Source: Salinibacterium sp. PAMC 21357 | GTDB taxonomy: Bacteria > Actinomycetota > Actinomycetes > Actinomycetales > Microbacteriaceae | Assembly (NCBI RefSeq): GCF_000247645.1 | Contig: NZ_AHWA01000006.1 | Span: 124,001 to 188,000, forward strand | Direction of reading: 5' to 3' | Length of the DNA stretch: 64,000 nt | Shown here: positions 7,746-11,378 of the stretch, piece after piece | How the letters are laid out: each line of letters opens with the position of its first letter | Position numbering within the stretch: position 1 is the stretch's first letter | Notes under the pieces: model-generated | Seen by the model: only the letters and a program-made list of their open reading frames with translations | Told to the model about the DNA's origin: nothing | Database searches by the model: none | Position numbers and translations under genes: made by a program

Positions 7746-7793
7746 CCACTACATCTAGGGTTGGCGGCCTGCGGTACCCACGATATATAGTGG
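7746..7793 (+). promoter_or_regulatory. nrd promoter overlapped by two tandem NrdR boxes
   Basis: Two 16-base boxes, CCACTACATCTAGGGT (7746-7761) and CCACGATATATAGTGG (7778-7793), match the NrdR consensus acaCwAtATaTwGtgt and are 32 bases apart start to start, three helical turns as usual for NrdR pairs. A promoter fits exactly between them: -35 TTGGCG at 7761-7766, a 17-base spacer, -10 TATATA at 7784-7789. Each box thus covers one promoter element. NrdR, with dATP/ATP bound, represses ribonucleotide reductase genes. Confidence 0.8.
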
Positions 7794-7853: not shown

Positions 7854-10300
7854 GTGGCAATTACAGTCGTCAAGCGCAACGGTCAGCGAGAGCCGTACGA
7901 CGCAAACAAGATCAACCTCGCAATTGAAGATGCGGCCACTGGTCTCGACGACAACATCACGTGGTCACCCAGATCGCCTCCGAGCTCGAACTGACGCTGT
8001 TTGATGGCATCACGACGCAGCAGCTCGACGAAGCCGTGATCCAAGTTGCGCTCCAGAACGTTAAAGACGACCCAGCTTTCGACACTGTCGCTGCCCGTCT
8101 TCTTCTCAAGACGATCTACAAGCGTGTGCTCGGCGACTACACCGACAACGCTGACCTCAAGCGCCTACACAAAGAGCACTTTGGCCCCAACATCATTCGT
8201 GGTGTTGAAGAAGGCCTGCTCGACCCTCGCCTCACCAGCATGTTCGACTTGGACGCTCTCGCCGAGCACCTTGAGCCCGCTCACGATGAGCTGCTCAAGT
8301 ACATCGGTGTTGTCACCCTCAACAACCGCTATGGCATCAAGGGCCGCAACGGCGACGCCCTCGAGGTTCCGCAGTACTTCTGGATGCGCATCGCGATGGG
8401 CCTCTCGCTCAACGAGGCGAACCCCAACGAGGCAGCCCTCAAGTTCTACGAAAAAATGTCCAGCCTGGAATACTTGGCTGCCGGCTCCACTCTCGTGAAC
8501 GCGGGAACGATCTACCCCCAGCTCGCCAACTGCTTCGTCATGGAAATGCAAGACGACATGGAGCACATCGCCAAGACGACGCGCGATGTCATGTGGCTCA
8601 CCAAGGGCACCGGCGGAATCGGCCTCTCGGTCACCAAGCTGCGCGCTCAGGGTTCGCCCATCCGCTCGAACAACACCACCTCCACCGGCCCCATCCCCTT
8701 CATGCACACGATCGACTCGATCCTTCGTGCGGTCAGCCGCGGTGGCAAGAAGTTCGGCGCGCTGTGCTTCTACATGGAGAACTGGCACATGGACTTCCCG
8801 GAGTTCCTCGAACTCCGCAGCAACTCTGGTGACCCTTACCGCCGCACCCGCACCGCCAACACGGCCGTCTGGATCAGCGACGAGTTCATGAAGCGCGTTC
8901 AGAACGACGACTCCTGGTACCTCTTCGACCCGCTCGAAGTCACTGACCTCAACGAGCTGTACGGCCAGGCGTTCTCGAAGCGCTACAACGAATATGTTGC
9001 GATGGCGGATGCCGGCGAAATGCACATGTTCAAGAAGATCGGTGCTCGCGAGCAGTTCAAGTCGATCCTCATCTCGTTGCAAACGTCGAGCCACCCGTGG
9101 TTGACCTTCAAAGACACGATCAACAACCGTGCGCTCAACAACAACACGGGCACGATCCACCTCTCCAACCTCTGCACCGAGATCACGCTCCCGCAAGACG
9201 AAGACAACGTCTCCGTCTGCAACCTCGCCTCGATCAACCTGTCGCGTCACCTTCTGCCCGAAGGCGGAGTGGACTTCGTGAAGATCGCCGAGAGCGCCAA
9301 ACTGGCCGTTCGCCAGCTCGACAACCTCATTGACATCACCCGCTCCAGCGTGAAAGAAGCAGACTTCTCCAACGAGCAAAACCGCGCGGTCGGCCTTGGC
9401 GTTATGGGCTTCACCGACATCATCGAGAAGCTCGGCTTCAGCTACGAGAGCGAAGAGGCCTACGACCTCATCGACGAAATCATGGAGCACGTCTCCTACG
9501 CGGCGATCGATGCCAGCACCGAGCTCGCCAAAGAGCGCGGTTCGTACACGAACTTCGAAGGCAGCCGTTGGTCAGAGGGTCTCGTGCCGCTCGACTCCAT
9601 CGCGCTCACCGAACAAGACCGTGGCATGGAAATCAAGGTCAACCGCAAGACGCGGCTTGACTGGGATGCCATGCGCGAGAAGGTCAAGGGTGGAATGCGT
9701 AACGCAACGCTCATGGCGATCGCTCCCACCGCATCCATTGGTCTCGTTGCCGGTACCACTCCCGGCCTCGACCCCCAGTTCTCCCAGATCTTCAGCCGCT
9801 CGACCTCGAACGGCAAGTTCCTTGAAGTGAACCGCAACCTTGTTGCGACTCTTCAGGAGCACGGCCTCTGGGAGCAGAACCGCGAAGCGATCCTGCGAAG
9901 CCAGGGCGACATCCAAAACGTTGCCGGCATCCCCGACGACATCAAGGCAGTATTCAAGACGAGCTTCCAGCTCTCGCCGTACTCATTCCTTGAGGTTGCT
10001 GCCCGGGCCCAGAAGTGGATCGACCAGGCCATCAGCCGCAACATGTACCTCGAGACGCGTGACCTCGGCGACATGATGGACATCTACCATGATGCGTGGT
10101 CTCGCGGAGTCAAGACCACCTACTACCTGCACATGAAGCCCCGCCACCAAGCGGAGCAGTCCACCGTGAAGGTCAACAAGTCAGAAGAAATTTCGTCGGG
10201 CAAGGCAGCAACTGCCACGGCCGGCTCAACCACTACGGGATCAGCCCCCGCACCCGCCCGCCGAGGTTTCGGCGGATTCGCAAAGAAAGCAGACTCATAA
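7854..10300 (+). CDS. nrdA: ribonucleoside-diphosphate reductase large subunit, with a 5' frameshift and no redox tail
   Basis: About 815 residues if read with one frame change. A GTG at 7854 with AGGGAG at 7843-7848 opens an ATP-cone sequence (VVKRNGQREPYDANKI). At 7962-7964 the frame must change, because ACGTGG followed by GTC needs one more G. After that, the frame from 7961 is open to TAA at 10298-10300. It reduces NDPs to dNDPs with NrdB. Catalytic cysteines are visible in YPQLANCF, LSNLCTEI and SVCNLAS, and the radical-relay tyrosines in TTYYLHM. The end is an Ala/Ser/Thr-rich linker closing in FGGFAKKADS, without the C-x-x-C pair. Without the frame change, only a GTG at 7961 could start, losing about 36 residues of the ATP cone. 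Confidence 0.88.
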
Positions 10301-10380
10301 TGAACCGCGAAAACACCATCGACGACTACTTCGTGCCGGTGGATCCCATGGACGACCTGCAGTGCGATAGCTGCCAGTAA
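10300..10380 (+). CDS. 26-residue ORF encoding the redox-active CxxC tail of the large reductase subunit
   Basis: The ATG overlaps the nrdA TAA (TAATG at 10298-10302), and its own TAA overlaps the nrdB ATG (TAATG at 10378-10382). The peptide has an acidic, aromatic middle (IDDYFVPVDPMDD) and ends in CDSCQ. Class I large subunits normally end in a flexible tail with C-x-x-C that re-reduces the active-site disulfide and is itself reduced by thioredoxin or glutaredoxin. nrdA here lacks that pair, so this ORF carries it in another frame. It may be a separately made peptide, a recoding product, or the result of one lost base near 10298. Confidence 0.7.
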   Translation: MNRENTIDDYFVPVDPMDDLQCDSCQ

Positions 10381-11378
10381 TGGGAATTCTAGGAACGGGC
10401 CTACAAGACGGCCTTCTGCTGAAGCCCATTAAGTACCAATGGGCCATGGACCTGTATGACCAGGCCGTTGCTAACACCTGGTTCCCTAACGAGATCCAGC
10501 TGGGCGAAGACATCGCCGACTTCAAGAAGATGACTGATGAAGAGCGTCACGCCGTGACCTTCCTCATGAGCTACTTCAACCCGAACGAGTTGCTCGTCAA
10601 CAAGGCCTTGGCCTTTGGTGTGTACCCCTACGTTTCGGCCGCAGAATGCTCGCTCTACTTGGCGAAGCAAATGTGGGAAGAAGCGAACCACTGCATGAGC
10701 TTCGAGTACGTGCTCGAAACTTTCCCCATCGACCGTGAAGCGGCCTACAACTCTCACGTTGACGTTCCTTCGATGGCGCGCAAAGAAGAGTTCGAAATGA
10801 AGTACATCCGTCGCATGACGGAGCAAACTCTCGACATCAACACCATCGAGGGCAAGCAGGACTTCATCCGCAACCTCGTTGCCTACAACGTGGTGCTCGA
10901 AGGCATCTGGTTCTACTCGGGATTCATGGTTGCTCTATCGTTCCGTCAGCGCAACCTGCTGCGCAACTTCGGTTCGCTCATGGACTGGGTTGTTCGCGAC
11001 GAAAGCTTGCACCTCAAGTTCGGCATCAACCTGATTCTCACGGTGATGGAAGAGAACCCAGAGATTCTGACGGAAGAGTTTGCTGACGAAATCCGTCAGA
11101 TGATTCTGGATGCTGTGGAAATGGAAGAGGCCTACAACCACGACCTTCTCCCCGGCGGCATCCTCGGCCTCAACGCCAACTACATCAACCAGTACGTCAA
11201 GTACTTGGCTGATCGCCGTCTTGAGGAGCTCGGATTCGACGCGCACTACAAGGTGTCGAATCCGGCGAAGTGGATGGCAACAGCCAACGACACTCTCGAG
11301 CTCGTGAACTTCTTCGAGTCGACCAACACCTCGTACGAGGCCAACGCGTCGGCAACGACCAAAGCCAAAGTCGAGTGA
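10380..11378 (+). CDS. nrdB: ribonucleoside-diphosphate reductase small subunit, class Ic-like
   Basis: 332 residues, ferritin-like R2 fold that makes the oxidant for NrdA. Metal ligands can be read as E70, E101, H104, E174, E208 and H211. The position four residues after H104, the radical tyrosine in class Ia/Ib, is F108 (EANHCMSF). Compared with Chlamydia R2 (E89, E120, H123, F127, E193, E227, H230), every spacing is identical. This predicts a Mn/Fe cofactor in place of a tyrosyl radical. The start overlaps the preceding stop as TAATG. The C-terminus is Ser/Thr/Asn-rich and ends in KVE, unlike the usual R1-docking peptide. Confidence 0.93.
   Translation: MGILGTGLQDGLLLKPIKYQWAMDLYDQAVANTWFPNEIQLGEDIADFKKMTDEERHAVTFLMSYFNPNELLVNKALAFGVYPYVSAAECSLYLAKQMWEEANHCMSFEYVLETFPIDREAAYNSHVDVPSMARKEEFEMKYIRRMTEQTLDINTIEGKQDFIRNLVAYNVVLEGIWFYSGFMVALSFRQRNLLRNFGSLMDWVVRDESLHLKFGINLILTVMEENPEILTEEFADEIRQMILDAVEMEEAYNHDLLPGGILGLNANYINQYVKYLADRRLEELGFDAHYKVSNPAKWMATANDTLELVNFFESTNTSYEANASATTKAKVE

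Follow-up and report, generated by a model that had tools for sequence, protein, structure and literature searches.

How can a class I ribonucleotide reductase (RNR) turn over when the cysteine tail of its large subunit is not encoded as part of that subunit? RNR makes the building blocks of DNA, and accounts of the class I enzymes usually place the cysteine tail on the large subunit itself. The question is raised by the nrdA-nrdB locus of Salinibacterium sp. PAMC 21357, within a stretch of 64,000 nucleotides (contig NZ_AHWA01000006.1, positions 124,001 to 188,000) that we call the window. There, nrdA closes without a C-x-x-C motif, and a separate open reading frame (ORF) of 26 codons, ending in such a motif, lies between nrdA and nrdB. 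From comparisons with related genomes, phages and plasmids we consider it very probable that this tail works on NrdA in trans, as a free redox peptide, and that it was detached in an ancestor of these Microbacteriaceae, a group of soil and water bacteria. The features of the locus are as follows.

7746 to 7793, forward strand: paired NrdR-like boxes 5' of nrdA (CCACTACATCTAGGGT at 7746-7761 and CCACGATATATAGTGG at 7778-7793, 32 bp from start to start).
7854 to 10300, forward strand: nrdA, encoding a class I RNR large subunit that lacks a C-terminal C-x-x-C (PF02867 and NF005101 matches).
10300 to 10380, forward strand: 26-codon ORF for the putative detached redox tail, MNRENTIDDYFVPVDPMDDLQCDSCQ.
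10380 to 11378, forward strand: nrdB, RNR small subunit (PF00268 match at 10380-11375).

The three genes are tightly interlocked. The main nrdA frame (7961-10300) closes with TCA-TAA at 10298-10300, and the ATG of the tail ORF takes the last A of that stop (TAATG, 10300); the tail peptide ends in CDSCQ, and its own TAA gives its last A to the nrdB ATG (TAATG, 10380). Translated from 7961 to 10297, the nrdA frame matches PF02867 with an E-value of 4.9e-166 and NF005101 with 1537.7 bits, and it is the sole PF02867 match in the source genome. The window NrdA has the barrel of a class I large subunit and, aligned to 5im3, keeps the active-site motifs SNLCTEI, VCNLASINL, LANCFV and TTYYL, which presumably supply the NxCxE finger-loop cysteine, the cysteine pair and the YY relay. 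The C-x-x-C tail is absent from the same polypeptide: the 779-residue frame holds four cysteines (in the contexts NCFV, LCFY, NLCTE and SVCNL), none of them C-terminal of TTYYL. At its 5' end nrdA is broken in frame near 7961, with a 46-residue frame (7854-7994) ahead of the body (7961-10300). All seven relatives inspected are uninterrupted at this site and, since the genome offers no other PF02867 match, the break is probably an assembly error of the single-base type. The initial annotation had suspected several single-base losses in the window, and for this one the relatives bear it out.

A similar error could in principle account for the 3' end as well: one base lost near 10298 would have broken a normal fused NrdA, as the initial annotation had allowed, and the frame break near 7961 shows that this gene does carry a lesion of that kind. 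The 3' ends of related nrdA genes speak decisively against it. Our named collection comprises 80 related loci, of which one split locus (L093) bears the label Cellulomonadaceae and a small number are assigned to Actinomycetota only; L057, with a truncated nrdA, was left out, giving 79 full relatives. NrdA lacks a C-x-x-C end in every one of the 79, including the near relative PHSC20C1 (L033), which has the same TAATG junction, and none runs NrdA continuously into the tail. Since the tail is moreover unlinked from nrdA in four genomes (see below), base loss at 10298 is rejected and retains a negligible probability. Across the 80 NrdA bodies (window plus 79) no cysteine follows TTYYL and no C-x-x-C occurs within the last 60 residues.

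The tail ORF itself recurs. Directly 3' of nrdA, 76 of the 79 full relatives carry a small ORF ending in C-[DE]-S-C-Q, in which the last 15 residues of the window ORF reappear with few changes, a recurrence far above chance. The initial description of the junction, an nrdA lacking C-x-x-C followed by a TAATG-overlapped ORF ending in CDSCQ, is thereby confirmed. The peptide follows the motif Y-x-V-P-x-D-P-M-D-x-L-x-C-[DE]-S-C-Q and measures 21 to 57 residues in the relatives inspected. Its 63 distinct 45-nt linked cores encode 25 peptides, with pS 0.53, pN 0.105 and a ratio of 0.20, pointing to a linked tail that is under purifying selection. These values also bear on the idea that the ORF only serves nrdB translation, as a coupling or leader element, its peptide having no function. 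In the window the ORF overlaps nrdA at its start and nrdB at its stop, as coupling devices do; however, its amino acids are conserved amid synonymous change, the gap between tail and nrdB exceeds 20 nt in 54 of the 69 linked loci with a placeable nrdB start, unlinked copies lie far from nrdB, and the motif is that of the fused RNR tail. On the pN/pS ratio and the tail-nrdB gaps we reject a coupling-only ORF, which appears extremely improbable.

Tails that are not linked to nrdA are the most direct evidence for a separate peptide. Three relatives (L064, L084 and L087) have no tail between nrdA and nrdB, and the tail sits elsewhere in the genome (L112-L114, E-values 7e-6 to 8e-5). NrdR-like boxes lie upstream of these three tail genes, whose neighbours, compared by eye, resemble the FAS1-dehydratase, MaoC and murB genes that Pfam identifies beside the stand-alone tail copies of the source genome and of G017. 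In Naasia lichenicola (G061) PF02867 matches once, at an nrdA without an adjoining tail; G060 and G062 have two PF02867 matches each. In a fourth unlinked genome (G105) NrdA ends in GGLSN, nrdB comes next, and a single tail lies on another contig. Finally, a viral contig (L306) encodes the tail upstream of a tail-less nrdA. With the tail unlinked in four genomes and upstream in L306, simple translation cannot join it to NrdA.

This last point weighs on recoding, the other route that the initial annotation had proposed, in which a -1 shift or stop read-through at the TAATG would yield a fused NrdA-tail protein. Taking as the tail start the first start codon from position -4 onwards, relative to the nrdA stop, we found that the start overlaps the nrdA stop in 60 of 77 linked tails (window included) and that 67 are in the -1 frame and seven in frame behind the stop, as recoding could exploit. 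The remaining three are in the third frame, though, and among the 76 linked relatives the start lies anywhere from -4 to +58 nt from the nrdA stop; a slippery XXXYYYZ heptamer within the last 33 nt before that stop occurs in just four of the 77. The four genomes without a tail near nrdA, the stand-alone copies with starts of their own and the upstream tail of L306 likewise contradict it. With no fixed frame, programmed frameshifting or read-through is rejected as a general route and is very unlikely overall. Supply of the tail in trans as a peptide, the alternative offered alongside it, gains strong support from the unlinked and stand-alone genes.

Stand-alone copies are common. A profile built from 24 tails and searched in 398 Microbacteriaceae genomes gave strong matches in 177, with two or more copies in 155 of these and up to six per genome. 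Weak matches in G184 and G192 were kept out of the 177; read by eye, the G184 DNA has no C-x-x-C end. The source genome has a second copy, MDNDNDNVGGYAIPVDPMDLLQCDSCQ, at G000:C2:421676-421750. For stand-alone copies chosen by a GY[AS][VI]P-type peptide pattern, we examined 22 distinct upstream regions for NrdR boxes, scored throughout against the NrdR box consensus; L177, L180, L182, L233, L234, L236-L238, L240 and L242 are among the extra copies outside this test. Paired NrdR-like boxes were present in 21 of the 22 regions, including that of the source genome, at 32-33 bp from start to start, equal to a 16-17 bp spacer (scanned range 30-33). In 20 of the 22 the pair beat all 200 mononucleotide shuffles, and L230 was equalled or beaten in one of 200; L239 had no high-scoring pair in the 150 nt taken. 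The pair at the window nrdA promoter scores 25 of 32 against a best of 22 in 500 mononucleotide shuffles. NrdR proteins are described as binding box pairs with spacers of 14-17 and 24-27 bp (PMC12051234), and the stand-alone copies thus carry candidate sites of an NrdR regulon.

The motif is also found at the end of longer frames. These include plasmid L194 (4752-5057) and two frames of genome G177 (L236, end 2639, and L238, end 2317), with ends such as ..YVVPIDPMEALQCDSCQ and ..YAVPVDPMDLLQCESCQ; the tail motif therefore terminates other proteins too. In Naasia lichenicola a frame of about 192 residues (L115, end 1554; L242, end 2822) has the tail-like end PVDPEDGLDCDSCQ; it may be a protein of a mobile element that closes with an RNR tail.

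Does the tail follow NrdA? With NrdA presence set at E <1e-60, the 398 family genomes divide into 170 with NrdA and tail, none with NrdA only, seven with tail only and 221 with neither (Fisher test p 2.6e-105, uncorrected for shared ancestry). This association bears on the possibility that the peptide has drifted to another role, such as regulating or inhibiting RNR or binding thioredoxin, while another thiol system reduces NrdA directly. Copies numbering up to six in a genome, copies that end other small proteins (L194, L236, L238) and phage copies beside holins would all suit such a role. On the other side, linked copies keep both the C-[DE]-S-C-Q end and P-x-D-P, none of the 170 genomes with this NrdA lacks the tail, and NrdA itself has no cysteine after TTYYL. 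We regard a drifted role as unlikely.

Outside the family the tail is fused. At the order level, where 63 genomes matched and 29 loci were read (many of the remainder at 37-43% identity), the motif is fused in frame to NrdA in 28 of the 29, which end in ...CPVDPMERLQCESCQ or similar; in G761 it lies in another frame without a start of its own, which may reflect an assembly indel. A class-level sample of 384 genomes gave fusion in 23 of 24, comprising 21 read whole and two truncated, inside NrdA in one case and in the linker in the other; the 24th, G897, has a weak match (E 4.8e-4) and no tail end. Among these loci L388 (G900) is fused with its 5' side cut and L376 (G1014) breaks off ahead of the NrdA body; L393, another match in G900, is left unassigned, and G058 and G506 are counted in both the order-level and class-level sets. 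In a phylum sample of 296 genomes, matches occurred only in the source genome and one fused genome. Fused tails (L197-L225) have a third cysteine in CPVDP; valine holds that place in all 63 distinct linked cores, and cysteine in 14 of the 80 viral tails listed below. In an NrdA tree of 62 hand-picked rows (25 fused and 37 split, the latter chosen from 80 split bodies), a single branch (support 100/99) separates all 37 split rows from the rest, and one change between fused and split suffices. The simplest history is one detachment event in the ancestor of the Microbacteriaceae that keep this NrdA.

Tail genes are likewise carried by mobile elements. The profile matched five phage-collection records (three phages) and 19 plasmid records; going by the names of their hosts or organisms, all of these belong to Microbacteriaceae, with Pontimonas phage phiPsal1 matched at an E-value of 1 only; PF02867 was found in none of six mobile records inspected (three phages and three plasmids). 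A DNA-pattern scan of IMG/VR returned at least 120 stretches, of which 80 loci were listed. The pattern fixes the DPM..CQ core, which is conserved there by construction; outside it, a proline two residues before DPM is present in all 80 listed tails. A start codon giving 20-40 residues is found, as a raw count, in 79 of the 80. Only two of the 80 listed pieces also have nrdA or nrdB, and PF02867 occurs on one of the 25 listed contigs of at least 27 kb, which may be fragments. Over all whole phage, plasmid and viral records checked, 30 of 31 show no RNR large-subunit gene. On the viral contig L323 (116,681 bases) nrdB comes after the tail gene, and nothing on that contig matches PF02867. Short tail ORFs are easily missed: no annotation covers several of the phage and plasmid copies (the gene table for plasmids has gaps). 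On the Leifsonia plasmid NZ_CP065038.1 a stand-alone tail ORF of 33 codons (L193, 4953-5054) is labelled 'ribonucleotide-diphosphate reductase subunit beta'.

In class I enzymes elsewhere the tail can act on a neighbouring subunit. In ordinary class I RNRs, electrons of thioredoxin or glutaredoxin reach the active site by way of a C-terminal cysteine pair (PMC5704485, PMC4390871). The separate ORF, its conservation and selection, the linked and unlinked cases, the co-occurrence with NrdA, the fused outgroups, the box pairs and the mobile copies are established by sequence, and from them we infer that the peptide is produced, binds NrdA and transfers electrons in trans. We hypothesize that the linked peptide would be made by re-initiation at the nrdA stop and that stand-alone genes, where present, would add to the supply; one such gene type carries NrdR-like sites, and a stand-alone copy could let NrdR tune tail supply together with NrdAB. 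The peptide would bind NrdA non-covalently, perhaps through its conserved Y-x-V-P-x-D-P-M segment, and once bound would reduce the active-site disulfide. Re-reduced by thioredoxin or a similar protein, it would cycle between active site and reductant.

Several results weigh against a free redox peptide and must be set beside this scheme. The 26-residue peptide has no family match in Pfam or NCBIfam, and the tail profile searched against the Protein Data Bank (PDB) returned no RNR chain and a single match, to an unrelated protein (E 1.9). AlphaFold2 models of six stop-read-through readings and ten bodies reached a mean pLDDT of 42 and were not used. The -1 relation at 67 of 77 linked loci would also permit occasional frameshifting there. 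The seven tail-only genomes (completeness 77-94%) have no strong NrdA match, and G192, also without this NrdA, has a short CxxCQ frame with no start of its own (CPVDSMDELNCDSCQ; L157, end 1498; G192:C18:26842-26895) that may be a relic or chance. Phage tail ORFs (L190-L192 and several IMG/VR loci) adjoin holin and endolysin genes and, in some cases, a metallophosphatase-like gene, and when ten small neighbouring genes of membrane type were chosen by eye at listed viral loci, six matched PHROG holins. A neighbourhood of lysis genes is ill-suited to a nucleotide-metabolism cassette.

Should the tail indeed act as a free redox peptide, a whole clade would show that it is able to serve as an exchangeable electron carrier, its length, affinity and stoichiometry would become directly titratable, and it would become clear how class I NrdA sequences lacking C-terminal cysteines could be genuine and active. 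If phages and plasmids provide nothing but the peptide, its gene would rank as a very small auxiliary metabolic gene. We see an even balance for and against the wider proposal that the class I RNR of this clade uses a diffusible, exchangeable, electron-carrying peptide cofactor and that phages and plasmids carry the peptide of about 26 residues alone, as a minimal auxiliary gene through which host deoxyribonucleotide (dNTP) synthesis would be increased or redirected.

A literature search at title and abstract level, covering few subscription papers, returned no account of a detached RNR tail. According to a 2022 survey, class I RNRs 'almost exclusively' bear a C-terminal double-cysteine motif (PMC9669993). 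Ordinary fused NrdA proteins, such as those of the out-of-family relatives, have the same terminal motif as the Microbacteriaceae peptide; their tail is covalent, whereas NrdA of the Microbacteriaceae is encoded with the tail separate and with valine for cysteine before PxDP. Two split systems come closest. NrdA-a and NrdA-b of Aeromonas phage Aeh1 are a functional class I nrdA in two genes, split by a homing endonuclease (PMC3653736), and resemble the present case in that a class I nrdA is encoded in separate parts. Unlike Aeh1, the Microbacteriaceae have no endonuclease or other gene between the linked parts (an overlap or a gap of at most 58 nt in 76 relatives), the tail alone is detached, and the state extends across a bacterial family. 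NrdJa and NrdJb of Pseudomonas aeruginosa form a split class II RNR in which the 229-residue NrdJb shares one operon with NrdJa, its cysteines mediate thiol-disulfide exchange, and both proteins are required in vivo (PMC4520616). As there, the cysteines of the RNR C terminus, whose redox activity in our case is suggested by the motif, are carried by a separately encoded polypeptide. The window locus has neither an NrdJb-type subunit nor a class II catalytic subunit: NrdJa/NrdJb is a B12-dependent class II enzyme, while the Microbacteriaceae enzyme is class I with nrdB and its tail a bare peptide. That tail, unlike NrdJb, occurs in multiple copies, is unlinked in some genomes and is present in mobile elements. 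The detached tail of the Microbacteriaceae is real and conserved and most likely a redox peptide working in trans, which would make this enzyme a new form of split RNR.

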